Assembly: GCA_016207925.1 (NCBI GenBank)
Contig: JACQZB010000083.1
Coordinates: 1-35,961, forward strand
DNA: 35,961 nucleotides
Source of the DNA: Nitrospinota bacterium
GTDB taxonomy: Bacteria > Nitrospinota_A > UBA7883
Direction of reading: 5' to 3'
The position numbers and the translations under genes were made by a program. Positions 196-27,564 of the stretch are shown here, piece by piece. The notes under the pieces are model-generated. The model was not told the DNA's origin. It did not search any database and saw nothing but the letters and a program-made list of their open reading frames with translations. Positions within the stretch are counted from its first letter, which is position 1. Each line of letters starts with the position of its first letter.

Positions 196-2538
196 CTAGA
201 ATTTGACCTTGGCCACGGCGGAAACCACGCTGACATCGTACGAGTTGTTGGTCACGCCCAACAGCAGGTTGCCGTTGACCGCCGCCGTGCCCGTGGTGGC
301 CCCGGAGGGGTTATACACGTTCACCTCGTCCAGCGCCCAGTCCACGATCTCGAACTTCTCGTACAGGTACTCAAGCCCCAGCGAGAACGCCTTGGTGATG
401 TTGTAGTCCGCCTTGGCGTTGACCGTGGTCAGCTTGTTGGTGATCTCCGTCAGGTACGAGGTGTCCAGCGCCGTGCCGTCCTTGCCCGCGGCGATGCCGG
501 CGCCGATGGCGAGAAACGGCCCGTAGATGCGGTGCGAACCCTTGCCGTCGCTAAACGAGTAGTCCAGCGAGTAGGAGATCGCGTCCACGCCGCCGGAGAC
601 GCCCAGGCCGTACACGCTCACCGTGTCCTCGCCGTCCACCGACCAGTCCATCTTCTCAAACGGCGTGATGCCGGTGTAGGGCGACGCCGTGGCGGCGTTG
701 CTGCGGCGGGAGGATTGCGTGTAGCTGTACTTCTCGTAGTTGTACATCGCGTTGAGCGCCACCATGCTGTTGATCATCCAGTCAACGCTCAACCCATACG
801 TGCTCATCTTGTTGCTGGTGAGGCCGTACAGGCAGTCCGCGCACTCCAGCGCCGGGTAGCCGTTGAACGCTGGCCGCTCGGTGTTGGTTGGGATGTGGCG
901 GTCCATGACCTTGTAGTCTTCGTTGGCGTTAAGGTACGTCAACGTGGCCGACAGGTCATCGGTGGGGTCAAGCTTGGCCAGCAGGTTGATCTCGCCGCGG
1001 TCCTTGTCGCCAATGTCATATTTTTGCAACATCGGCAACTGGGCCACCGTGGCGTTACCCTCGGTCACCTTGCCGCTGGCGATGGTTCCGTAGCCCTCCT
1101 CCTCGGTGATATCCACGTAGTGGTCACCGCGGCGCTGGCTCATTTTATAAGAGGCCTTCACGAACACCCAGCCCATGTCCCCCGTGGGCCGGTAGCTTGC
1201 GGATAGCCGGTAGTTGGTGTCCTTGGAGCTGTCAATCTCCCGGTGGACCCGGTTGTTGGTGATCTGCTCGTAGGTAAGCCCCAGCTTGAACCCTTGCATC
1301 AGGTTCAGGCCCAGGTCGCCGGCCCACGTGGTGTACTCGAAGGAGAGCGGCAGGTTCCGCCGGACCCCGGCGCTGGTGCTGCGGTCAGCGGTGGCGTACT
1401 GGTACCAGTCCACCATCTCAGTTTTGTTGTCGTAGTGGTAGTAGTTGTACCGCACCTTGACGTCCAGCAACTCCACCGGCGCGAAGGACAACACAAAATC
1501 GCGGTTCTGCACGTCCGCCTTGCCGTCCAGGTTGTCACGGGACAGCGCGGCCTGCTTCACCAGCGGGTTGGCCGTGCCCGCCAGGATGAACGGATCGGTC
1601 TGCTTGTGCTGGCCGACGCTCCATAGCCCCGTCAGCCGCCCGTTCATCGGCAGGTTGGCCGCGCCGGACAGCGAGTACTGCATGGCGCTGTTGTCCGGTA
1701 CCAGCACATACTCCGCCGCGGGCGACAGGTTGCCGCCAACGGCGCTGGTGGAGGCCACCCACGGGTTATCGTACCGCGCCGTGTCAATGGCGTTGCTGAA
1801 AGACGAGGTCTGGTAGTTGAACATCAACTTGTAGTCCTCGTCCTGGTAGCCGATCCGCCCGTTCATGATCGTGGAGGTGTAATCAATCGGCTCCTCGGTT
1901 TCACGGATGAACCCGAAGGAGTAGTAGTTGCTCCACGGCCGGGCGCCTTCCCGCTTCTCCTGCGAAACGTCGGCGCTAAAGCGGATGTTCGGCGTGATGT
2001 TGAAGAACACATTGGCCTCGGTGGTCTTGCGATCCAGTTCGAGGTCAATGGGGTGGGTTTGCGCCGCCATCGCCTTGATGGCCTTGTCCGGCGCGCCGGC
2101 CTTGATGGGCGCGGTGTTGGCGGCCTGGATGGCGGCCTGGATGCTGTCATCCACGGTGTACACGCCGTCCGACGGGTTGTTGAAAATGGTCTGGGCGCCC
2201 TCATAGAAATTGTGCGGCGTGGCGTCGTAGTTCAACCCTACCTCCCACTCGCCGTACTTCCCGCCGGACAGGCCGAACTCCTGCGTCCGCCGGCCGATGT
2301 CGTCCGCCGTAAAGCCGATATGGAACACGCTGTCCTTCTCGGCCGTGACCGAGGCGGACGCCGTGGCGCCGTCCTTGATGTCCCGGTACTCGTTGAACTT
2401 GGACATCTGGCTCGACTCGTTCACATTGTCATAGCGCACGGAAGCTTCGCCGCGGGTTTCCCAGTCCCCCGCAAGGGAAGCGGACGGGAACGCCAGCAAG
2501 GCGCCCGCGGCGAGCAGGCTCATCAATTTCGTTCGCAT
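196..2538 (-). CDS. MtrB/PioB-family outer-membrane beta-barrel of a decaheme conduit
   Basis: This is a predicted outer-membrane porin that would sheath the decaheme cytochrome encoded just upstream, so that electrons can cross the outer membrane. The protein starts with a clear signal peptide (basic start, hydrophobic LLAAGALLAF, cleavage after SLA). It continues with many alternating amphipathic strands rich in Tyr/Asp/Asn and ends in VKF, the aromatic C-terminus typical of barrels inserted by the Bam machinery. About 780 residues is a usual size for MtrB/PioB. A CADC pair lies in the second half; Shewanella MtrB has its CxxC near the N-terminus, so this one may be unrelated. I chose the start at 2538 because GGAGGAG lies 4 nt upstream and the signal peptide begins there. 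A second in-frame ATG at 2613, also with a good ribosome site, would add 25 residues before the signal peptide. The family call is firm; the direction of electron flow and the partner are unknown. Confidence 0.85.
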   Translation of the reverse strand: MRTKLMSLLAAGALLAFPSASLAGDWETRGEASVRYDNVNESSQMSKFNEYRDIKDGATASASVTAEKDSVFHIGFTADDIGRRTQEFGLSGGKYGEWEVGLNYDATPHNFYEGAQTIFNNPSDGVYTVDDSIQAAIQAANTAPIKAGAPDKAIKAMAAQTHPIDLELDRKTTEANVFFNITPNIRFSADVSQEKREGARPWSNYYSFGFIRETEEPIDYTSTIMNGRIGYQDEDYKLMFNYQTSSFSNAIDTARYDNPWVASTSAVGGNLSPAAEYVLVPDNSAMQYSLSGAANLPMNGRLTGLWSVGQHKQTDPFILAGTANPLVKQAALSRDNLDGKADVQNRDFVLSFAPVELLDVKVRYNYYHYDNKTEMVDWYQYATADRSTSAGVRRNLPLSFEYTTWAGDLGLNLMQGFKLGLTYEQITNNRVHREIDSSKDTNYRLSASYRPTGDMGWVFVKASYKMSQRRGDHYVDITEEEGYGTIASGKVTEGNATVAQLPMLQKYDIGDKDRGEINLLAKLDPTDDLSATLTYLNANEDYKVMDRHIPTNTERPAFNGYPALECADCLYGLTSNKMSTYGLSVDWMINSMVALNAMYNYEKYSYTQSSRRSNAATASPYTGITPFEKMDWSVDGEDTVSVYGLGVSGGVDAISYSLDYSFSDGKGSHRIYGPFLAIGAGIAAGKDGTALDTSYLTEITNKLTTVNAKADYNITKAFSLGLEYLYEKFEIVDWALDEVNVYNPSGATTGTAAVNGNLLLGVTNNSYDVSVVSAVAKVKF

Positions 2539-2628
2539 TGCGCTCCTCCATGGCGCGCCCGCGCTCTCGCGGGCGGCGCCGGTCACGTCATCACGCTGAT
2601 TGATCGTGTTCATGGCTTCCTCCCTCGA

Positions 2629-3582
2629 TTAGCGGTGGAACCGCGGGCCAGACGGAGAGTTGGACCCGTGGATCTGTTGGTGACAGTTGAGGCATCCCCT
2701 GTTGTACATGAACTGGCCCGTGCCGGTGGTCACATACGCCCCGTTGGCGTCAACCGCGCGCGGATCGGTATAGGCGTTGGAGGGATGGTTGGTGTTCGCA
2801 TGGCACCGCTGGCACAGGAACGGAATCTTGGCCTTGAGCGCCTTGTGGTTGTTCGTGCCGTGCGGGTCGTGGCAGTTGGTGCAGTTCTCGCGCACGGGGG
2901 CGTGCTCCCACAGGAACGGCCCGCGCTTTTCCATGTGGCAGGTGTAGCAGGTTTCATTGACCGTCAGGCCCACCAGCAGCCGCTGGCCGGCCGAGCCGTG
3001 CGGATTGTGGCAGTTGGTGCAGGTCATCTTCCCTTCACGGAAGGGCATGTGGTTCGTGCGCTGGAACTGCGCCTTGCGCTGGGTGTGGCACTGGAAGCAG
3101 GTGTCCTCCACGGTGCCCTTGGCCATCTGGCGCGTCTTGCCCGTTTTCTTCATGATGGTGTGGCAGTCCACGCAGGCCACGCCGTTGGACTGGTGCTGCG
3201 ACCCCTTCCAGTACATCTTGTAATCGTCGTTGGTATGGCACCCCAGGCAGACCTCGTTCTTCTGCGCCGCGGTCAGCGGCGAATGCTTTTTAAACGAAGT
3301 GATCTTGGCCAGGTCATTGCCCCGTCCGTCCTTGGCGTCGGCCATGTGGGCCTCGCCGGGGCCATGGCAGGCCTCGCACCCCTTGGCCTGCATGTCGTTC
3401 CGCGGATTATGCAGCAACACCTTGCCGTGCATCGTCTCGGAGAACGATTCAAAAAAATCCTCGTGGCACAACCGGCAATCTTGCGCCGTGGCGGCGTCCG
3501 CTCCCGGCGGCGCCCACAAAACCCCCGCGGCCGCCCCCATCAACAGCGCGATGAAGGCAAGCCTCCCCAAACATCGTGGCAT
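2629..3582 (-). CDS. Periplasmic decaheme c-type cytochrome (MtrA/PioA/DmsE family)
   Basis: The 317-residue protein has a signal peptide (MPRCLGRLAFIALLMGAAAG, cleavage near ADA-AT) followed by exactly ten CxxCH heme motifs: CRLCH, CEACH, CLGCH, CVDCH, CFQCH, CTNCH, CYTCH, CTNCH, CQRCH and CLNCH. This size and count match the MtrA/PioA/DmsE family, periplasmic electron wires that plug into an MtrB-type barrel. The barrel gene follows after 15 bp to its upstream ATG, so the two form an operon. The start at 3582 is set by GAGGAGG about 6 nt upstream and by the signal peptide; a longer frame runs to 3726 but its extra residues look non-coding. A sigma-54 promoter lies about 80 bp upstream. The role could be metal reduction, metal oxidation or another extracellular redox reaction. 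Confidence 0.92.
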   Translation of the reverse strand: MPRCLGRLAFIALLMGAAAGVLWAPPGADAATAQDCRLCHEDFFESFSETMHGKVLLHNPRNDMQAKGCEACHGPGEAHMADAKDGRGNDLAKITSFKKHSPLTAAQKNEVCLGCHTNDDYKMYWKGSQHQSNGVACVDCHTIMKKTGKTRQMAKGTVEDTCFQCHTQRKAQFQRTNHMPFREGKMTCTNCHNPHGSAGQRLLVGLTVNETCYTCHMEKRGPFLWEHAPVRENCTNCHDPHGTNNHKALKAKIPFLCQRCHANTNHPSNAYTDPRAVDANGAYVTTGTGQFMYNRGCLNCHQQIHGSNSPSGPRFHR

Positions 3583-3662
3583 GATTCTCCTCCTCAATAA
3601 TTGAACTTCAGCCCGCTTTAATACCCCTGAAGTCACCCCGCCCAAGGGTTCAGCTAAGACTA

Positions 3663-3678
3663 AGCAAGGGCTGTGCCT
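3663..3678 (-). promoter_or_regulatory. Sigma-54 (-24/-12) promoter of the cytochrome operon
   Basis: On the minus strand the sequence reads AGGCACAGCCCTTGCT. Against the consensus TGGCACG-N4-TTGCW it keeps GGCAC, the 4-nt spacer and TTGCT, with exactly 10 nt between the invariant GG and GC. Transcription would begin near 3653, giving a leader of about 70 nt before the cytochrome ATG. An NtrC-type activator gene lies immediately upstream, which supports the call. Confidence 0.75.
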
Positions 3679-3790
3679 TCGCCGGACATGCCCCGCGCGG
3701 CGCGCGATTCTGGCAAGCATGGACAATTCAATCAGATTAGGCTGGTCCGCAAAACCACGTTCGTATGGGCCGGGTGGTGGATTATCAGGC

Positions 3791-15481: not shown

Positions 15482-16942
15482 CTACCGCGGTGTCAACAGC
15501 TCCGCCACGCGCTCCGGAGCATGGAGAAAATACGGGTAGTCGCGGGCCGACGCCGCGGCCCATTCCGGCTCGCGCGCGCGCTGGAGAGTTATCTCTTCTT
15601 CTATGGCCCGCCGGGCCGGCGCCAGGGTTTGCGCCATGAGGGCGTTGAGCGCGCCGATGCGGGCGCCGATGGATTTTTTATCCGCGCCGGGCGCCGCGAT
15701 AGCCCGGGCCAGTTCATGTTTCTCCCGCGCCAATTCCGCCGCGGTGGCGTCCGTGAATTTTTCCGGATGCTGCTCCCTATCCCGCTTTTGCGCGGCGAGT
15801 TGGGCGATGGCTTTATGGGGGTCGCGTCCGCGCGCCGTTTCTATCCATCGTGTGCCGGTGGCCAGCGCGTACGATCCCGGTTCCAGCCCGTAGTACCGGT
15901 GGATGATGTCATCGGTGATCTGGTCGTACTTGGAGCCGCCCACGCCATGGATGAACAGATCGCATACCAACAGACGCAGGTACAGCGACAGGGTGATGGC
16001 CTTGGGCCGCACGGCCAACGCGCCGCGCGCAAGGTCCTCCAGGGGATGCGCCGCGCCGCTTTCGGTCATGACGCGCCCGCCATCGGCGGCCATAAACCAC
16101 CGTTCGCGCCCGCGCGCCGTGGCCAGCCAGAAGGGGGCTTCCCACGCGCCGTCCTCGCGCCGGGTCAGATCGGGGAACGGGTTGGCCGGGTAGCGCAGCT
16201 TGTGCTCCTTGCGGTAGCGGGCCAGGGCGCCGTTGTACGTTTCCACGAAGCGCGGCAGATCGCGCGCGATGGCGGCGGCGAACGCCGTAAAAGGACGTTG
16301 GGCGCACAGGCGCGACACAGGCAATTCCAGGTACCCCCGCGCCAGGGCGCCCGCCTCCCATGCGCGGCGCATCTGGATGGCGCGCGCGGAAAAAGAATCC
16401 CCCGAGGGTACCACGCGCTCCCAGCCGCCGCGCCACCGGGCGAAGGCCGCGGCGGGGACGGCGAGCCGTTCATCCGCCATCAGGCGCGCCGCGCCGTCGA
16501 GCCGGGCGCGCAGCGCCCCAAGAGTTTCCACTACGGCGGACTCGTACGTCGTGCCCGGTTGATGTTCATGGAACAGATATTCCACGCGCGCAAGCGCGCC
16601 CTCGCGGACGGTTGGCATGGGAGCGGCGGCGGCGGTGAATTCGTCGGAGTCCACCGTGATATGCAGCGCCGCGGCGCCCAGCGCCTCCGCCCGCGCGGCC
16701 AGAACGAAGTTTTTGACCGCGATACCGGGATGAATGAGCAGCGCATCCTCCAGCGCCCCGCGCCGCGCCTCCGCCGCCAACTCCGCCATCGCCTCGCCGC
16801 CGATCCGCGCGCCGCGCGCCAGAGCGCGGTTCGCGTCCAGCGCGCGCCCATAATTTTCAAGTGAAGGGATGAGCAGGGCGCTCCCGTCCTCCTCCGGCGG
16901 TTTGAGGCCGCGCAGGGAAACAGGGGAACCGGGCAGCGGCAC
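15482..16942 (-). CDS. Conserved hypothetical protein, possible divergent BshC-like enzyme
   Basis: No named family is certain for this 486-residue soluble protein. It resembles hypothetical proteins that I recall from planctomycetes and similar bacteria, with HPGIAVKNF at 71-79, VDSDE at 97-101 and a strongly conserved-looking block DLFIHGVGGSKYDQITDD at 328-345 preceded by RP. A helical, Arg/Glu-rich C-terminus follows (about 375-465). The order resembles BshC, the last enzyme of bacillithiol synthesis: an early nucleotide-binding-like block with an EDHD-type motif, a central RP...FIxGxGExxY block and a late coiled coil. The BshB1-like gene lies 16 bp upstream, which adds context. The start is GTG with GGAAAGG 7 nt upstream. 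BshC identity is a guess that needs structure-level comparison. Confidence 0.4.
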   Translation of the reverse strand: MPLPGSPVSLRGLKPPEEDGSALLIPSLENYGRALDANRALARGARIGGEAMAELAAEARRGALEDALLIHPGIAVKNFVLAARAEALGAAALHITVDSDEFTAAAAPMPTVREGALARVEYLFHEHQPGTTYESAVVETLGALRARLDGAARLMADERLAVPAAAFARWRGGWERVVPSGDSFSARAIQMRRAWEAGALARGYLELPVSRLCAQRPFTAFAAAIARDLPRFVETYNGALARYRKEHKLRYPANPFPDLTRREDGAWEAPFWLATARGRERWFMAADGGRVMTESGAAHPLEDLARGALAVRPKAITLSLYLRLLVCDLFIHGVGGSKYDQITDDIIHRYYGLEPGSYALATGTRWIETARGRDPHKAIAQLAAQKRDREQHPEKFTDATAAELAREKHELARAIAAPGADKKSIGARIGALNALMAQTLAPARRAIEEEITLQRAREPEWAAASARDYPYFLHAPERVAELLTPR

Positions 16943-16958: not shown

Positions 16959-17642
16959 CTACACCAGGTCGCGCAGGCCGGTAAGGCCCACTGGCTCGTC
17001 GCTGATCACCGGTTCGCCGAACCGCGTCCCGATCAGCCCGCCGAAATACGCGGCCTGTTCGGTGAGGCGCTGGACGATCCATTCCTCCCGGCCCTGCCAG
17101 GCGAATTGCGACTGGTAGGCGCGCACCGCCTCCAGTTTGAGCGCGAACGTATCGGTGACGTCCAGTATGAACGCCGGGGTGACCGGCAGTTTAAGGTGCG
17201 AGGCGTGGTAGCGCAGCAAACGTGGAATCCACCATGGTTCGCCGGGGATGGCGCTCTTGGTGAGCTTGGCGTCGAACCGGGCCTTGTTCATCACCTTCGC
17301 GCCGTCAATATGGTCGGGGTGGGCGTCCACCTCGCCCTGGATGAACAGCAGGTGAGGGCGCAGTCGGCGGTACACGGCGGCTACCATGTGGCGGGCGGCC
17401 ACGGTGTCGGTCAATTCGCGGTTGGGCAGGTCCAGGGTGACGCGGGCCGCCGCGCCAAGTATCCGCGCGGCGCGCGCGGCCTCCTCCATGCGCGTGGCGG
17501 GGTCGCCCTTGGGGGTCGGTTCGCCGTTGGTAAGGTCGAGCAGGGCCACCTGATGGCCCTGGCGGGCGAGCAGGGCCACCGTGGCGCCCAAACCAAGCTC
17601 TATATCGTCGGGATGAGCGCCAACGACGAGGACATTGACCAT
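16959..17642 (-). CDS. bshB1: PIG-L/LmbE-family deacetylase, BshB1-like
   Basis: The 227-residue zinc-dependent deacetylase has the metal-binding motif GAHPDDIELG (HPDD at 10-13) and HPDH at 108-111. The segment DLTNGEPTPKGDPATRMEEA resembles the substrate loop of the family. The C-terminal sequence (EAVRAYQSQF, then AAYFGGLIGTRFGEPVISDE) is the pattern of BshB1, which deacetylates GlcNAc-malate in bacillithiol synthesis. PIG-L enzymes also act on other N-acetyl sugars, so the substrate is inferred. The ATG at 17642 overlaps the glycosyltransferase by 43 bp. No BshA-type (GT4) enzyme is in the window; the adjacent glycosyltransferase is GT2, not a BshA homolog. Confidence 0.75.
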   Translation of the reverse strand: MVNVLVVGAHPDDIELGLGATVALLARQGHQVALLDLTNGEPTPKGDPATRMEEAARAARILGAAARVTLDLPNRELTDTVAARHMVAAVYRRLRPHLLFIQGEVDAHPDHIDGAKVMNKARFDAKLTKSAIPGEPWWIPRLLRYHASHLKLPVTPAFILDVTDTFALKLEAVRAYQSQFAWQGREEWIVQRLTEQAAYFGGLIGTRFGEPVISDEPVGLTGLRDLV

Positions 17643-18328
17643 CGCTCCAGTTCCTTTCGCATGACGCCAAGGTAGTGCCGCAGGCGGCGTTGGGGGTCGT
17701 CCATTTCGCCGCCGAAGGTGCGGTCCAGGTTCTTGTAGATACGCGGAACGGCGATTTCCCTCACCGTCAGACCCAGCCGCCATGCCTGTATCCAGAATTG
17801 CAACGGCATGGCGTAGCCCGGCTCGTCCAGGGCAAGGCGCGCCAGCGCCGCCGTTTTGTAGCACTTGAAGCCGCAGAACGAGTCGGTGAGGCCATAGCCG
17901 GTGATCTGGTTGACAATGGCGGTGATGCGCTGGTTGATAAAGCGCCGGTCTTCCGGCGGCGCGTCCCCGGACGGATCCTCCTCCAGGTAGCGGCTGCCGG
18001 AGAGTACATCGGCGGCGCCGATCTCCTTGAACAGGCGCGGGATCAGGCAAGGCTCGTGCTGCTCATCGCAATCAATGGTCAGCGTCAGATCGTAACCGCG
18101 CTCAACGGCGAAGGCGAAGCCGTCAATCAGGGAACGTCCGTAGCCCAGGTTGGTCTCGTGGCGGATAAGGTGGCACGGGCGCACGGATTCGATGATCGAA
18201 GCGGAGCCGTCGGTGGAGCCGTCGTCCACCACCAGCGTATGGCCGGGGTTGAAGTGGAGGATGCGTTCGAACACGTGGCCAAGCGTGGCGGCCTCGTTGA
18301 ACACCGGAACGACCACGAGCGCTTTCAT
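17600..18328 (-). CDS. GT2-family glycosyltransferase (polyprenyl-phosphate mannosyltransferase-like)
   Basis: The 242-residue protein has a GT-A fold pattern: VVVPVFNEAATLGHVF at the start, VVDDGSTDGS with D35/D36, HETNLGYGRSLIDGF, and TIDCDEQHEP with the DxD-type pair at D86/D88. It resembles dolichol/polyprenol-phosphate sugar transferases that lack the C-terminal membrane helices. It would use an NDP-sugar and a lipid or small-molecule acceptor. It lies between cheX (18-bp gap) and the BshB1-like gene (43-bp overlap). The donor and acceptor cannot be read from sequence. Confidence 0.85.
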   Translation of the reverse strand: MKALVVVPVFNEAATLGHVFERILHFNPGHTLVVDDGSTDGSASIIESVRPCHLIRHETNLGYGRSLIDGFAFAVERGYDLTLTIDCDEQHEPCLIPRLFKEIGAADVLSGSRYLEEDPSGDAPPEDRRFINQRITAIVNQITGYGLTDSFCGFKCYKTAALARLALDEPGYAMPLQFWIQAWRLGLTVREIAVPRIYKNLDRTFGGEMDDPQRRLRHYLGVMRKELERWSMSSSLALIPTI

Positions 18329-18346: not shown

Positions 18347-18811
18347 CTACTGGTCAAACGAGGCTTCGACGACGAACTGGAATCCGCCGTCAATGGTGAA
18401 GGGCATGGCGATGGTGGGGCCGGAGGTGATGCTCTCGATGATGTGGCCCTTGCCGGAGACGATGGTGGGCAGGCCCGCCTCGAAGGTGTAGCCGACCTCC
18501 ACGAGCTTGCGCCGCGCGTCGCCGGAGATCATGTTGGTCAACTCCCCCACGGCGTCGGAGACGTCGGGGCCAAGCTCCGTATAGGATTCGCCGAGCATGG
18601 AGCTGACGATCTTGCAGATCGCCCCGGTGGTGAAGGTGAGCACCACCACCCCCTTGCTCGAGCCGGTCATGCCGATGATGCCGGAGATGTCGCCGATGGC
18701 CTTGCGGTCCGTTTTAAGGAAGGGTTTTCCGGCCACCGGCTTGATCTGCGCCATGGTGGACAGCACGTTGATGGTGGCGGCCAGAAAGGGGTTGATCATG
18801 TCTGATTTCAC
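18347..18811 (-). CDS. cheX: CheX-type CheY-P phosphatase
   Basis: The 154-residue protein has the CheX/CheC fold pattern, with DVSDAVGELTNMISGDARR bearing the catalytic E90-xx-N93 pair. Most of the rest is alternating strands (GVVVLTFTT, TIAMPFTIDGGFQFVV). CheX removes phosphate from CheY-P, setting chemotaxis or other response-regulator signalling. No chemotaxis genes are nearby; it sits between marR and a glycosyltransferase. I chose the GTG at 18811 because AAAGGTGA lies about 5 nt upstream; the ATG at 18799 is an alternative. It could regulate a response regulator other than CheY. Confidence 0.85.
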   Translation of the reverse strand: MKSDMINPFLAATINVLSTMAQIKPVAGKPFLKTDRKAIGDISGIIGMTGSSKGVVVLTFTTGAICKIVSSMLGESYTELGPDVSDAVGELTNMISGDARRKLVEVGYTFEAGLPTIVSGKGHIIESITSGPTIAMPFTIDGGFQFVVEASFDQ

Positions 18812-18830: not shown

Positions 18831-19280
18831 CTAGCGGAACGAGCCGGCCTCCTCAATGCGGGTAAGCGCCACGCCGACCAGCGCCACGAACTGTTCGCGC
18901 TGGCCCTCGTCGAGTTTGTATAAGAGATCGGCGGCGATCCGGTCGGGTATGCGTTCCATCAGCCCCGCCAGCGCCCGTCCTTTTTCATCAAGCGCAAGCC
19001 ACGTTTTGCGCCGGTCCCCGGTGTCGCGCGCGCGTTTGAAAATTCCGCGGGAAACCAGGTTGTTGACCACCCAGGTGGTGGTGCTCGGCGGGGCGTCCAG
19101 CGCCGCGCCCAGGGCGCCGATGGTGATGCGCTCCGCGCGGGCCACCACCTTAAGCGCCTTGCGCTCGGTATCGGTCAACTCGCGGCTCAACAGCGGCACC
19201 GTGCTTTCAATTTGTTGGTAGCGGGTCACAATCAGGTCCACAAGCTCCTTTACCTGGCCGGATTCCCGCGTTGGTTTCAT
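18831..19280 (-). CDS. MarR-family transcriptional regulator
   Basis: The 149-residue protein has a winged helix-turn-helix: LTDTERKALKVVARAERITI, ALGAALDAPPSTTTWVVNNL as the recognition helix, and RDTGDRRKTWLALDEKG as the wing. N- and C-terminal helices would form the dimer. It is the first gene of the minus-strand operon that goes on to cheX, a glycosyltransferase, the BshB1-like gene and the 486-residue gene, so it probably controls its own operon. ATG 19280 has AGGAC close upstream and a good sigma-70 promoter is present. The ligand is unknown; thiol-sensing Cys is absent. Confidence 0.88.
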   Translation of the reverse strand: MKPTRESGQVKELVDLIVTRYQQIESTVPLLSRELTDTERKALKVVARAERITIGALGAALDAPPSTTTWVVNNLVSRGIFKRARDTGDRRKTWLALDEKGRALAGLMERIPDRIAADLLYKLDEGQREQFVALVGVALTRIEEAGSFR

Positions 19281-21147: not shown

Positions 21148-21873
21148 ATGAAACTGCTCGCCAGCGTTATCAGTGTCACCGAAGCCGGACGCCTTGCGGA
21201 TGTCGCGGCGCTTGTGGATGTCAAGAACCCCGCCCGCGGTCCGTTGGGCGCGCCCGATCCGGCGCTGGTCCGGGAGATTCGCCGCGCATTGGGGCCGTCG
21301 GCCCCGCTTTCCGCCGCGCTGGGCGATCTGGTTCCGGACCGCATGGAGACCGTGGAGCTTGCCCGCCAGATGGCCGAAGCCGGGGCGACCCACGTCAAGG
21401 CGGGCCTTGCGCGCGTGAGCTTTGATCAGGCGCGCGCCACGCTGCGGATGGTCAAGAACGCGCTCGATCCGCGCGTGGCGGTGATCGCGGCGGCGTATGG
21501 CGACGCGGAAGAACTCGGGCTATTCCCCCCCGGTCAATTGCCGGAGCTTGCGCTGGAAGCGGGGATTGACGGGGTGATGGTGGACACCTGCCGCAAGGAC
21601 GGGCGCTCGCTGTTCGACCACCAGAAGCCAGAAACCGTGGGCGAGATCATATCGCGCGCCCGCGCGCTGGGGCTGCAAACCGCTCTGGCCGGCGCCTTGG
21701 GCGAGGCCCATCTCCCCAGTCTGGGCGAGTTGTCGCCGGACTGGGCGGGATTCCGCACGGCGCTTACCGCAAACGGCGACCGGGCGCGGGAAGGCGTGGA
21801 CCGGATGCGCGCGCTGGCGCTTTCGGGGATGCTCGCCGCCGCGCGGGCCACCGCATCGGCGCGGCGCGCCTAG
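21148..21873 (+). CDS. mfnB: MfnB-like (5-formylfuran-3-yl)methyl phosphate synthase
   Basis: The 241-residue TIM-barrel protein belongs to the MfnB/DUF556 family, which condenses two triose phosphates into the furan of methanofuran. It has VDVKNP at about 24-28 with the Lys at K26 and HVKAGL with K84, placed like the two catalytic lysines of the archaeal enzyme, followed by GLFPPGQLPELALEAGIDGV, the phosphate-binding MVDTCRKDGRSL, and ALAGALGEAHL. It is 25 bp after fabI on the same strand. It is convergent with an MfnE-like kinase and the two stop codons share CTAG. Bacteria with MfnB usually carry tetrahydromethanopterin/methanofuran-linked C1 metabolism; no other such gene is visible here. 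Confidence 0.8.
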   Translation: MKLLASVISVTEAGRLADVAALVDVKNPARGPLGAPDPALVREIRRALGPSAPLSAALGDLVPDRMETVELARQMAEAGATHVKAGLARVSFDQARATLRMVKNALDPRVAVIAAAYGDAEELGLFPPGQLPELALEAGIDGVMVDTCRKDGRSLFDHQKPETVGEIISRARALGLQTALAGALGEAHLPSLGELSPDWAGFRTALTANGDRAREGVDRMRALALSGMLAAARATASARRA

Positions 21874-22510: not shown

Positions 22511-25500
22511 CTACTTGAGCGTCCGCACCTGCACGGGGGCGCTCGGTTCGCTGGCCAGCCCTTCCTTGTCCACGGCCGTCACCACGAAGGTGTAGCTGGA
22601 GTCGGGCTTGAGCTTTTCGGCAAGGAACGAGGCTTTCGCCGTTTCGCCGATCTTGTCCTTGCCGAAGATACCCGCGGAGTACACGACGTACTTCACCACG
22701 TCCGCTTCGGGGTTTGGGTTCCAGGACAACGTCGCCGACGTGGTGGCCGCGGTGACTTGCAGCCCTTCGGGCTTGGCCGGCGCCGGCTTGGTGGAACCTT
22801 CCGCCGGCAGGCTTTCCGGGCTGAGCAGGTTGTCCTTGTCTTCCGCGGCGACGCGGTAGAAATAGGAGGCGCCGTTTTTAAGCCCCTCGTCCACATAGGC
22901 GGCGGCGTTCACCGTGGTGACGGAACGGTAGGGGCCGTCCTGCGACTCCGAACGCAGCACGCGGTAGCCCGCGATGTCCGTTTCGGGATTGGGGTTCCAG
23001 GACAGCGTCACCTTTCCCTTCAATCCCAGGCTGGCCGTAAGGCCGGTGGGCGCGGAGGGGACGGGCTTGGTGACGGCTTTGACGGCTTCCGGCAACTGGC
23101 TCTCCACCCCCACGCTGTTGATGGAGGCGACGGTGTAATAGTATTCCGCGCCGTCGCCAAGCCGCTCGTTCCATCCGCCGGCGTCCTTGAACTGCGCGGT
23201 CTTGGGTTCGCGGATCACCTTGATCTGGACCAGCTTCTCCTGCGAGGAACCGCGATACACGGCATAACCGGCGATTTCCGGATCGGTCAGCGGCAGCCAC
23301 GACACCAGCACCTGCTTGACCAGCCCGGAGGCCGCCTGTACCCCCGTGGGCGGGGCGGGCGGGCCAAACGTCTGACCGTTTACCGCTGGAGACAGGTCGC
23401 TTTCGGCGCCGCCTTTGTTCAGGGCGGACATGCGGTAGAAGTAGGCGGCCCCGTCCTTGAGATCAACGCCCTTCTTGTCGGCATCGGTGTATTCGGTCAC
23501 CGTGCGGTCGGTGATTTCCTTGATCATCTTGAATTCACCATCGCGCGCGGTGTGGCGGTAGATGCGGTAGGCGGCGATTTCGGAGTCGGGATGCAGCGTC
23601 CACGACAGCGACACACTGCGCACCCCGGAGGAGACCACTTGCAGGTTGGCCGGCGGCTTGGGTTTTTGGCGCGAGGCGGCGTTCACCGGTTCGGTCATGT
23701 TGCCGCGCTTGTCCGCCTCGTTATAGGAGACCAGTTTGTACCAGTACGTCACCCCGTCATCCAACGCATGGCCGCGGGTGGAATCCGGCTTGTCGGTGAA
23801 GGAACTGGTGTCGGCGCCTTTCAGGCGGGCGATTTCCTTGTACTCGCCATCCTCGGCCCCGGCGCGATACAACAAGTAGCCGGTGGCTTCCGGATCGCTG
23901 CTGCGCTGCCAGGTGAGCGGTATCTGCCGGATCAGGCCCGATACGGCCCCGGCCATGGTGGGGGGATTCGGCCCGCCCTTGGCGATGACCACACCCGGCT
24001 CGGAAAAGTCCGAGAGGGTTTTTTCGCCGTTATAGGCGCGGACCTTGTAGAAGTAGCGCTTGCCGTCCTCGAGCTTGACGGAGCGCGAGCCTTTATCCAC
24101 CACCTCGATCTCATCCCGCTTATCGGCGCGCTTGAATTCCTCAAAGGGGCCGTCACGGTTCTCCGCGCGGAGGATGAGGTAGCCCTCCACTTCCGGCTCC
24201 GGATTGCGCGTCCAGGTGACGATGTTCTCCCGGAACTTTTCCGAACGCCCGCCAACGCCCGTGGGCGGACTGGGCCGGAAGCGGATCAGGTTGCCCTGGG
24301 CGACGGGGAACTTGGAGTCGAACTCCTTGGTGATCTTCGCCTCGCTGGTGGCGGGGCCGGGGATGGTGATCTTGATTTTTCCGGTGAGCCTTTGGTTTAT
24401 GGCCAGCACTGTTTTGGTTTCGGGATCCACGATGCGCTCGTCGGCGTTGAACGCATAAAATATTTGATCCTTCTGGTAGCCCTGCAGCGTGCCCACGTTG
24501 ATGGTGACATCCTTGGTCAAATCGCCGTCGGACTCCTTTTTGCGCTCGATGATATAGCCGTCCTTGAAGGGCAGCACGGGCAGGGAGCGGGCCACGTGCG
24601 GCGCGTCCTCGCGCCCGGAATACTGCACGTTGCCCGTCTCGTCGGTGGCCTCGATGTAGTAGTTCAACTTGCCCGGCTTGAGGAACAGCGGCGGAATGGG
24701 CGCGGAGTAATCGCCCGAATCGCCGGGGTCGCGCATCCGGTCCTCCACCCACTTCTTGTCCCCCTCCTTGCGGTAGTACACTTTCACGGAGGCCAGTTTC
24801 TTGTTGTCCAGCACGCGCGCCTGGATGACAAGCTCCGAAGCGTCGGACGTGGTGAGCATGGGGGTGTGGAATATGGAGGGCGGCTCCTTGTCCAGTTCGA
24901 TCACGCGCACGGCGAAGGGCGACTGCGCCGAGCCTTCGGTCACGGCATTGCCGCCGATGTCGCGGGTGGAAAGGTAATACTCCAGCCCGGCGGTGGTCAC
25001 CTTCTCGCGCGGGATAACGCCCTCGTACACCCCCTTTTCCACCTGCGTCATGGGGATGGACTCGTACTCCGCCGAGCCGGGGGCGCGGAACAGCAGGCTG
25101 GCCTCGGTAATGCTCTGGTTGTCCTGAATGGCGGCGCGCGCCCTAAAACTGGCGCCCTCCTTGGCCGATTCCACCGCCTGGTGGGAGATGGTGGGCGGCA
25201 CGGTGTCCGAGATTGTCAGCTCCAGGTAGAACTCCGCCCGGCCCGGCTCGAACACCTCAATCTCGCGTTCTTCCGGTTTGTAGCCCTGCTTGACCACCTT
25301 GAGGATGTGGCGGCCCACCAGCAGGTCGCCGACCGTCACCGGCGAAAGGCCGCGCAGCTCGCCGTCCAGCACCACTTCGGCGTCCGAAGGCGCGGTCTGG
25401 ACGATGATGGAGGCCAACGAACGCGCCCGCGCCTGGTCGTACAGCTTGAGCACATGCGGAGGATATTCGGCGGCGGTGAGCTTGCGCTTGGGGTCAAGCG

Positions 25501-25774
25501 TGACGGCCATGGTGAAGGCGCGGCCGGCCTCCTCGGGCTGGTTCAGGCCCAGGTAAACCATGCCCAGCAGGATGTGGGCGGTGGCTTGTTGCTTGGGGTC
25601 GTTGAGCTGCGGCAGAGCGCCGGTCAACGCGGTCAGCGCCTCCTGGAACTCGCCCCGCTGGTAATGCGCCTTGCCCTGCGTGACAAGCTCCGGCCCCGTT
25701 TGCGCCCAAGCCGGATGCGCCCACAGGAGCGCCGCCGCCAACGCGGCGATGAAAAATCTGCCTGCTGACACCAT
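22511..25774 (-). CDS. Exported TPR-PEGA-FN3 multidomain protein
   Basis: The 1087-residue protein has a signal peptide (FFIAALAAALLWAHPAWAQ). TPR-like helices (about 30-120) and a PEGA domain (ASIIVQTAPSDAEVVLDGEL region) follow, then two beta-rich regions with IxDNxxxxxAxLxxR-like patterns (220-430). Six fibronectin type III domains make up the second half, each starting at a Pro-rich link (for example PNPPTMAG, PKPPANLQ, PAPPTGVQ, PSAPTGLT). Such architecture suits an envelope scaffold or binding protein; no enzyme is visible. ATG 25774 is set by AAAGGGG 5 nt upstream. The PEGA gene stops 10 bp upstream and the MfnE-like gene follows by 5 bp, so the kinase-PEGA, FN3 and MfnE-like genes are one operon. 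Confidence 0.85.
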   Translation of the reverse strand: MVSAGRFFIAALAAALLWAHPAWAQTGPELVTQGKAHYQRGEFQEALTALTGALPQLNDPKQQATAHILLGMVYLGLNQPEEAGRAFTMAVTLDPKRKLTAAEYPPHVLKLYDQARARSLASIIVQTAPSDAEVVLDGELRGLSPVTVGDLLVGRHILKVVKQGYKPEEREIEVFEPGRAEFYLELTISDTVPPTISHQAVESAKEGASFRARAAIQDNQSITEASLLFRAPGSAEYESIPMTQVEKGVYEGVIPREKVTTAGLEYYLSTRDIGGNAVTEGSAQSPFAVRVIELDKEPPSIFHTPMLTTSDASELVIQARVLDNKKLASVKVYYRKEGDKKWVEDRMRDPGDSGDYSAPIPPLFLKPGKLNYYIEATDETGNVQYSGREDAPHVARSLPVLPFKDGYIIERKKESDGDLTKDVTINVGTLQGYQKDQIFYAFNADERIVDPETKTVLAINQRLTGKIKITIPGPATSEAKITKEFDSKFPVAQGNLIRFRPSPPTGVGGRSEKFRENIVTWTRNPEPEVEGYLILRAENRDGPFEEFKRADKRDEIEVVDKGSRSVKLEDGKRYFYKVRAYNGEKTLSDFSEPGVVIAKGGPNPPTMAGAVSGLIRQIPLTWQRSSDPEATGYLLYRAGAEDGEYKEIARLKGADTSSFTDKPDSTRGHALDDGVTYWYKLVSYNEADKRGNMTEPVNAASRQKPKPPANLQVVSSGVRSVSLSWTLHPDSEIAAYRIYRHTARDGEFKMIKEITDRTVTEYTDADKKGVDLKDGAAYFYRMSALNKGGAESDLSPAVNGQTFGPPAPPTGVQAASGLVKQVLVSWLPLTDPEIAGYAVYRGSSQEKLVQIKVIREPKTAQFKDAGGWNERLGDGAEYYYTVASINSVGVESQLPEAVKAVTKPVPSAPTGLTASLGLKGKVTLSWNPNPETDIAGYRVLRSESQDGPYRSVTTVNAAAYVDEGLKNGASYFYRVAAEDKDNLLSPESLPAEGSTKPAPAKPEGLQVTAATTSATLSWNPNPEADVVKYVVYSAGIFGKDKIGETAKASFLAEKLKPDSSYTFVVTAVDKEGLASEPSAPVQVRTLK

Positions 25775-25784
25775 GGATACCCCT

Positions 25785-26606
25785 TTATTCAACCGCCAGC
25801 CGCATCGTGAAATCCTCGATGACGGTTATCTCGCGTTTGTAGTCCGAAAGGCCCGGCCGGCGGATAATCACCATGTGCGGACCCGCGGCCAGTTCCGTGA
25901 TCAGCTTGGGTGTTTCGCCATACGCCTTGCCGTCCACGAACACTTGCCCGGCGGGCGTGGAGGTGATATTCAGCGATCCGGTTCTCGCCGGCGCGGCGGC
26001 GGTCCCCTCGGCGGCCTCCAGTTCCGTGTCGGTGAACGCATGGCTCACCGCCGCGGTTTCATTGGGGGCCACCTTCACCGTCTGCGAAAACGGCTTGTAC
26101 GCGGGATTGACCAGTTTCACCGTCACCTGCCCTTCGGGGATATTTTCCACCACTTTCGGGGTGGCGCCCACTTTTTCATTGTTCATGTAGATGTCGGCCC
26201 AGGGCGAAGCGGCGAAGCGGATGGCGCCGAAACCAAGTTTTTCGAGCCGGGCGGCGATTTCCGTCTTCTGCCCCGCCGTGATTTTGGCGGATGCGGCGAA
26301 GGGTTTGTAGCCCTTCATGCTCACGGCGACCTTGTGCGACCCTTCCGCCAGGCGGCCCTTGAAAGGGGCCACGCCCACGGCGGCGCCGTTGCTCTCCACC
26401 GTGGCGCCCTTGGGCGCGTCCACCACTATGTCGCCAAAAGCGCTGGCCAAGGCGATGTTGAGGGTGAAGGGCTTGTCCTTGACGATCTCGAACTCGCCGC
26501 GCGCGTCCGCGTGTCCGGGGAGCATGGCCACGTAGCGATGTTTGCCCGGTTTCAAGTCCCCGCTTTCAAAAGGGGTGACGCCCGCGCGCTGGCCGTCTAT
26601 GAACAA
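25785..26606 (-). CDS. PEGA-domain region of the Ser/Thr kinase gene (frameshifted off)
   Basis: This 273-codon frame encodes four PEGA-like repeats (LFIDGQRAGVTPFESGDLKP, DIVVDAPKGATVESNG, ADIYMNNEKVGATPKVVEN, GQVFVDGKAYGETPKLI). The upstream neighbour's kinase domain ends in a different frame over the same DNA. The PEGA frame is in fact open from 26714. Read upstream of the TTG at 26606 it adds a Pro/Ala linker and the first strand of a PEGA repeat (ARIVSGPEGAE). The domain is therefore cut if translation begins at 26606. The best reading is one kinase-PEGA protein broken by a +1 shift inside the 18-bp repeat. A GGAGGG seven nt before the TTG is noted but probably codes for the repeat. Confidence 0.75.
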   Translation of the reverse strand: MFIDGQRAGVTPFESGDLKPGKHRYVAMLPGHADARGEFEIVKDKPFTLNIALASAFGDIVVDAPKGATVESNGAAVGVAPFKGRLAEGSHKVAVSMKGYKPFAASAKITAGQKTEIAARLEKLGFGAIRFAASPWADIYMNNEKVGATPKVVENIPEGQVTVKLVNPAYKPFSQTVKVAPNETAAVSHAFTDTELEAAEGTAAAPARTGSLNITSTPAGQVFVDGKAYGETPKLITELAAGPHMVIIRRPGLSDYKREITVIEDFTMRLAVE

Positions 26607-27564
26607 CTCCGCGCCCTCCGGGCCGGAAACTATGCGGGCGAGCGCCGGCTCCGGCGCGGGCGCCAGAGCGGGGGCGGGCGCCAGAGCGGGGGCGGGCGGT
26701 CGCGTCCGATTCGGTCAGGCCGCCGAAATCATCCGGCAATTCCGCCATCGCGCGCAGCGCCGTGACCACTTCGTGGCAGGATTTGTAGCGGTCCTTTCTG
26801 TCCTTGGCCATCATCTTCGCGATGACGGCGTTCACCCGGTCCGGCAGCGACGCGTCGAACTGCGTCACCGGCGGCGGCGTGTCCTGGATGATCTTGAAGA
26901 TGATGGAGGTCAGCGTCTCCGCCTCGAACGGCTTCTTGCCGGTGACCATCTCGTAGAACATCACGCCCATGCTGAAAATGTCGCTCTGCCCGTCCACCGT
27001 CTGGCCCTGCACCTGTTCCGGCGACATGTACAACGGCGAGCCGACCGCGTGGCCCGTCTGCGTCACCGACCCCGCGGATTGCAGCCGCGCCAGCCCGAAG
27101 TCGGTGATCTTCACCGTGTTCTTCTGGGTGAGCATGATGTTGCCGGGCTTGATGTCGCGGTGGATGATGCCCTGCTCGTGGGCGAAGGCCAGCCCTTCGG
27201 CCACCTGCATCACCAGCCGGGCCGCTTCCTTGTAGGGGAGCTTTTTGCGCTCCTTGAGCAGGCTGGCCAGGTCGCGCCCCTCGACGAACTCCATGGCGAT
27301 GAAGCTCATGCCGGCTTCTTCGCCCACGTCGTACACAGTGACAATGTTCGGATGCGTCAGTTTGCCGGCGGCGCGCGCCTCGATGAAGAAGCGTTCCAGC
27401 AATTCGCGTTCGCGGTCGGAGTCGCCCACGTCGGCGAGCTTGATGATTTTCAGGGCGAGGAGGCGGTCTATTTTCGGATCGCGGCCCTTGAGCACGATGC
27501 CCATGCCGCCGCGGCCGAGTTCCTTGACGATTTCGTACCGGCCAAGGCTTTTGATTTGATTCAT
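26566..27564 (-). CDS. Ser/Thr protein kinase (Hanks type), C-terminus frameshifted
   Basis: The kinase domain (about 9-270) is complete. It has the Gly-rich loop (LGRGGMGIVLKG), the ATP-anchoring Lys in LALKII, the catalytic loop HRDIKPGN, DFGLAR, and SPEQ in place of APE. No membrane helix follows. After about residue 290 the frame becomes an Arg/Ala/Pro tail that reads the PEGA-coding DNA out of frame (GVVHRRPARG overlaps LFIDGQRAGV). The last 45 residues are therefore artefactual. The intact gene would be about 25785-27564. Related kinase-PEGA proteins occur in deltaproteobacteria and acidobacteria. A good sigma-70 promoter lies upstream at 27652-27680. The FN3 protein downstream may be a partner. 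Confidence 0.85.
   Translation of the reverse strand: MNQIKSLGRYEIVKELGRGGMGIVLKGRDPKIDRLLALKIIKLADVGDSDRERELLERFFIEARAAGKLTHPNIVTVYDVGEEAGMSFIAMEFVEGRDLASLLKERKKLPYKEAARLVMQVAEGLAFAHEQGIIHRDIKPGNIMLTQKNTVKITDFGLARLQSAGSVTQTGHAVGSPLYMSPEQVQGQTVDGQSDIFSMGVMFYEMVTGKKPFEAETLTSIIFKIIQDTPPPVTQFDASLPDRVNAVIAKMMAKDRKDRYKSCHEVVTALRAMAELPDDFGGLTESDATARPRSGARPRSGARAGAGARPHSFRPGGRGVVHRRPARGRHPF
26657..26692. repeat. 18-bp tandem repeat (two copies) in the kinase-PEGA linker
   Basis: CGGGCGCCAGAGCGGGGG occurs twice in a row (26657-26674, 26675-26692) with a 6-bp partial third copy. In the PEGA frame it codes for a Pro/Ala/Leu linker (APAPAL units). It contains runs of five G, a likely place for slippage or base-calling error, and it is where the kinase and PEGA frames separate. 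Confidence 0.8.

Follow-up and report, generated by a model that had tools for sequence, protein, structure and literature searches.

Gene content of the locus

The window, which is the whole 35,961-nucleotide stretch of Nitrospinota bacterium contig JACQZB010000083.1 that was analysed, contains a tight set of three genes on its reverse strand. In reading order, they encode a DPM1-like family-2 glycosyltransferase (GT2) of 242 aa (17600..18328 (-), PF00535 with E = 6e-21), a BshB1-type PIG-L deacetylase of 227 aa (16959..17642 (-), PF02585 with E = 9e-22) and a BshC-like protein of 486 aa (15482..16942 (-)), which belongs to no Pfam or NCBIfam family and was characterized through its open reading frame, an AlphaFold2 model, Foldseek and hhalign. 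The GT2 gene overlaps the deacetylase gene by 43 bp; the third open reading frame, which begins with GTG, ends with TAG and has no internal stops, starts 16 bp past the deacetylase stop codon, the spacing given in the initial annotation. The deacetylase passes the TIGR04001 equivalog cut-off of 182.5 bits (186.4 bits, and 185.9 bits in a second search), and its solved relatives include BshB1 (6p2t, E = 1.6e-28).

Two co-directional genes lie upstream of the triplet: a CheX-like gene (18347..18811 (-), PF13690 with E = 3e-23) and a MarR-family regulator of 149 aa without cysteine (18831..19280 (-), PF01047 with E = 1.5e-6), whose homologues begin near 19280. Among the compared loci, the CheX gene is retained near the triplet in 13, window counted, and the MarR gene in six; the upstream pair occurs in the window and in only part of the class. 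Further away, the region at 196-3726 (-) encodes an MtrB/PioB-type outer-membrane porin adjoining a multihaem cytochrome, which suggests extracellular electron transfer; a gene at 21148-21873 (+) resembles the 4-HFC-P synthase (PF04476) of a methanofuran-type pathway, an enzyme best known in methanogens and methylotrophs; and the region at 22511-27564 (-) encodes two PEGA proteins, one of them a large fibronectin-III/PEGA protein, next to a gene for a serine/threonine kinase.

Similarity of the third protein to BshC

The initial annotation suggested that the 486-aa protein may be a divergent BshC-like enzyme, citing three segments (HPGIAVKNF, VDSDE and RP...FIHGVGGSKYD) that follow the order of their BshC counterparts and a coiled-coil tail behind them. 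All three segments are present in that order, and the tail appears in the AlphaFold2 model as helices at residues 375-455. Across an alignment of 22 members (the window protein and 21 relatives), H71, G73 and K77 of HPGIAVKNF and D98 of VDSDE are invariant, as are P313, A315, R323, F330, H332, G333, G335, G336, Y339 and D340, so that the motifs are constraints of the family. No convincing Pfam or NCBIfam match was obtained for any of the 22 members, and no description of the family or its pathway was found in the literature. Direct sequence searches of the PDB, whether with the protein or with family profiles, produced nothing beyond chance and coiled-coil matches and were set aside; the link to BshC came solely from fold comparison and profile-profile comparison.

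BshC, the bacillithiol cysteine ligase, is the presumed final enzyme in making the antioxidant thiol bacillithiol, with the assigned role of joining cysteine to GlcN-malate. It consists of a Rossmann core, connecting peptides and a coiled coil, and is related to MshC (PMC4360819). The AlphaFold2 model, calculated from the 22-member alignment (pLDDT 88, pTM 0.84), is BshC-like, which answers the structural check that the initial annotation had named. In particular, Foldseek returned B. subtilis BshC (YllA; 4wbd) with E = 7.9e-9 and a probability of 1.00, the only match below E = 0.001, while VIA-align matched 427 residues to 4wbd with Z = 21.6 and an rmsd of 8.3. The similarity extends over most of the length, and the combination of Rossmann core and coiled-coil domain found in 4wbd is met; the TIGR03998 equivalog cut-off of 265.8 bits is not, and the NCBIfam BshC model matches none of the 22 members. 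Class I lysyl-tRNA synthetase (1irx) came next and shares the catalytic core fold (VIA Z = 16.0), but its Foldseek match is weaker (E = 2.2e-3) and no Pfam tRNA synthetase model matched any of the 22 members. A single-sequence AlphaFold2 model of an intact homologue (L031) reached a pLDDT of only 38 and was excluded.

In the profile comparison, hhalign placed 311 columns of the widened family in register with the BshC profile (score 56.2, P = 4e-6). A local re-run gave a score of 42.7, as compared to 30.7 for the best of 200 column shuffles, the control adopted for this score, and 25.7 for the reversed profile. Block-shuffled controls in the same set-up reached up to 40.0 because they preserve 10-column motifs, and much of the score therefore sits in local motifs. 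The BshC alignment used is genuine, because it retrieved 4wbd at 1e-135. The (T/S)G(H/Q)Q...K, D(S/H)D, RP and GG...Y motifs occur in identical order in both families, where the family's segments align collinearly with TGQQxGLFxGPxYTxYK, DHDF, RP and GGPxEIAY of BshC. Their letters differ, however: the family has GHQPxxxHPGVxxK where BshC has TGQQxGLFxGPxYTxYK, and identity in the profile alignment is only about 11-13%. The active-site equivalences rest on this profile alignment, without a residue-level structural superposition. Overall, judged from a predicted fold and remote profile similarity, the 486-aa protein is an unclassified relative of BshC.

A segment missing from the window's copy

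The window's copy lacks about 27 residues just ahead of HPG, including the GHQP motif that all other members of the 22-member alignment keep, a gap that the initial annotation missed. The gap lies at 16738-16742 and corresponds to an in-frame loss of about 27 codons; the two matching parts are only 3 nt apart, and so no frame can be hidden between them. It may be a true deletion or a fault in the 170-contig assembly, which remains undecided. The absence of an active-site motif from this copy alone raises the possibility that the window protein, the only BshC-like copy in its genome, is a pseudoenzyme or a decaying gene. We consider this quite unlikely, as the reading frame is unbroken, both the operon and the other invariant positions are preserved, the model of the window protein still folds with the pLDDT given above, and an assembly error could account for the gap. 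Decay of this copy would be compatible with any reading of the family and is no argument against the family itself. The functional conclusions are built on the whole BshC-like family.

Distribution and conserved gene order

The BshC-like protein occurs in 20 of the 23 genomes sampled for the window's class, and all 20 have the gene order GT2, BshB1, BshC-like, where the last two genes often overlap by 4 bp. In the genomes without it (G003, G006 and G020), the BshB1 match lies no more than 466 bp from a contig end, so gene loss is not shown there. The same triplet order is found in four other families (f82, f153, f212 and f61), and distant relatives occur in Planctomycetota MAGs and several unrelated families. 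In the phylum of genome G158, which was taken as Planctomycetota by similarity and is called planctomycete-like here, 40 of 245 sampled genomes carry the family. Several of these carriers are single-contig genomes of 4-8 Mb and, by inference, may stem from cultured isolates. The GT2 gene adjoins the BshC-like gene in 12 of 17 planctomycete-like loci examined, and in the genomes checked BshB1 scores above cut-off and is located away from the BshC-like gene. Thus, the linkage to bshB1 from which the initial annotation argued holds in the class and in several families and, where it is broken, the genomes checked nevertheless contain a BshB1.

Some members depart from the common form. A shorter, divergent branch (family f96) is found at L117:5240-6622 and L118:7592-8989, with BshB1 elsewhere in both genomes; the L118 copy directly follows an unclassified 279-aa open reading frame and shares an operon with genes for a MutL-like protein, an aldehyde dehydrogenase and an S9 peptidase. 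A 337-aa member without the coiled-coil region (L116:7364-8377) lies beside a GT2 gene and a BshB1 gene that appears frameshifted.

Canonical bacillithiol genes and the glycosyltransferase

None of the 34 family or class genomes has BshA above cut-off, and no recognisable canonical BshC turned up in the 27 family-positive genomes that both searches covered. Sub-cut-off BshA matches occur in every genome and are generic GT4 enzymes, as they are in bacillithiol-free control genomes. For the window's genome in particular, the search for BshA that the initial annotation had proposed found none above cut-off, and a canonical BshC elsewhere, which could have refuted the BshC-like reading, was not detected at E ≤ 0.001 in that genome or its class. 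With neither BshA nor canonical BshC, BshB1 therefore stands without its usual partners in the family-positive genomes, and the two vacant positions beside it are taken by the GT2 and BshC-like genes. The GT2 gene was considered as a BshA (TIGR03999, cut-off 273.7 bits) and rejected, since it is a PF00535 GT2 and BshA is a GT4. The fold, the collinear profiles and the bshB1 linkage together support the divergent BshC-like reading; the idea that it marks an unrecognised branch is likewise borne out by the lack of any Pfam or NCBIfam model for the 22 members, the missing BshA and the GT2 in its place. Separately, three genomes (G074, G048 and G030; loci L119, L120 and L121) have very divergent BshC matches of 57-80 bits that do not match the BshC-like family, with a PIG-L deacetylase nearby in G074 and G048; these may be another BshC branch.

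The affinities of the GT2 allow for a different product. Its nearest solved structures are dolichol-P-mannose synthase and ArnC, and its best NCBIfam match is the polyprenyl-P-GalNAc synthase PpgS (70.8 bits, well under the cut-off of 370). Because these solved enzymes act on polyprenyl phosphate, the strongest competing reading is a lipid-linked product: the GT2 would form polyprenyl-phosphate-HexNAc, the BshB1-type enzyme would deacetylate it and the BshC-like enzyme would aminoacylate it, yielding an envelope modification and no redox thiol. This route is credible but unlikely, as the recurrent neighbours inspected included neither a glycolipid flippase nor a GT-C transferase, and the deacetylase scores as BshB1, whose substrate, GlcNAc-malate, is soluble.

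Evidence bearing on a possible thiol product

YpdA of S. aureus reduces bacillithiol disulfide and requires Cys14 (PMC6591457). YpdA scored above cut-off in 5 of 27 family-positive genomes, 17 of 48 BshC-positive genomes and 1 of 166 others (Fisher p = 2e-4 for family-positive genomes versus those with neither, without correction for relatedness). The five carriers are the window's genome (G000, 400.8 bits) and four relatives, all in one class, and the co-occurrence is thus only suggestive; most family-positive genomes have no YpdA above cut-off. This co-occurrence points to a soluble disulfide, which counts against the lipid-linked product. The YpdA copies of the family-positive genomes lack Cys14, as do most of those from the examined BshC-positive genomes. 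The bacilliredoxins BrxA/B and BrxC/YtxJ are almost confined to BshC-positive genomes and were not detected in any of the 27 family-positive ones, so the thiol system differs from that of Firmicutes.

The same observations bear on whether the genes simply make ordinary bacillithiol by a non-orthologous route, in which the GT2 would do the work of BshA on malate, the BshC-like protein being no more than a very divergent BshC. A BshB1 above its equivalog cut-off and the YpdA of the window's genome are what such a route would show, but the missing bacilliredoxins and the difference in family between the GT2 and the GT4 BshA make it improbable. Overall, the pattern fits a related but different thiol and, where YpdA is absent, also a non-thiol product. 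That the adduct is cysteine, and the product hence a thiol, is an inference, for which the YpdA co-occurrence is the sole independent hint.

Proposed pathway

The set of GT2, BshB1 and BshC-like genes points to a thiol-like or aminoacyl-sugar pathway that has not been described. Our preferred reading, which we consider probable though far from certain, is that the BshC-like family supplies the final enzyme in a three-step route that parallels bacillithiol synthesis and yields a cysteinyl-type thiol on a different acceptor; the enzyme's activity, amino acid and acceptor have not been shown. First, the GT2 would put an N-acetylhexosamine onto an unidentified acceptor. Second, the BshB1-type deacetylase, to go by its family, would free the 2-amino group. 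Third, as inferred from the fold and the gene set, the BshC-like enzyme would link the carboxyl of an amino acid, by analogy most likely cysteine, to that amine. The predicted product is an aminoacyl-, probably cysteinyl-, glucosamine conjugate, a bacillithiol-like thiol with another acceptor.

This three-step pathway is supported by the BshC fold, the motifs, the three-gene linkage, the lack of BshA and canonical BshC, and YpdA in the window's genome. Weighing against it are the missing bacilliredoxins, a YpdA that is mostly absent and without Cys14, the polyprenyl phosphate used by GT2 relatives, the fair fold match of lysyl-tRNA synthetase (Z = 16.0), the loss of GHQP in the window's copy and the fact that, up to 2015, not even canonical BshC had been shown to be active in vitro (PMC4360819).

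Compared to the BshA-BshB-BshC pathway, the system likewise joins a glycosyltransferase, a PIG-L deacetylase and a class-I-synthetase-like ligase, with YpdA in some carriers; both ligases have BshB1 as partner. It differs in that the BshC-like gene is paired with a DPM1-like GT2, whereas BshC is paired with the GT4 BshA, in that no bacilliredoxins were found and in its tight three-gene operon. The mycothiol pathway (MshA-MshB-MshC) follows the same logic, and MshB is related to the window's deacetylase, though the latter scores far under the MshB cut-off. MshC forms the analogous amide in mycothiol synthesis, but is a paralogue of cysteinyl-tRNA synthetase (PMC2922099).

Implications

The BshC-like family accounts for BshB1 genes that are found without BshA or BshC, and ties that question to testable genes. 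As of a 2015 review, the mechanism of BshC was still unknown and no in vitro activity of the canonical enzyme had been demonstrated (PMC4360819); a second BshC-type family would help resolve the mechanism. Hiras et al. (2018) counted Planctomycetes among the major lineages without a documented or predicted small thiol and urged the study of partial-pathway genomes (PMC6282198). A serious possibility, though just short of an even chance, is that the GT2, BshB1 and BshC-like enzymes make a new low-molecular-weight thiol, a cysteinyl-hexosamine whose acceptor is neither malate nor inositol, in the window's phylum, the planctomycete-like phylum and further lineages; if true, this would supply the small thiol so far missing from the record of groups such as Planctomycetes.
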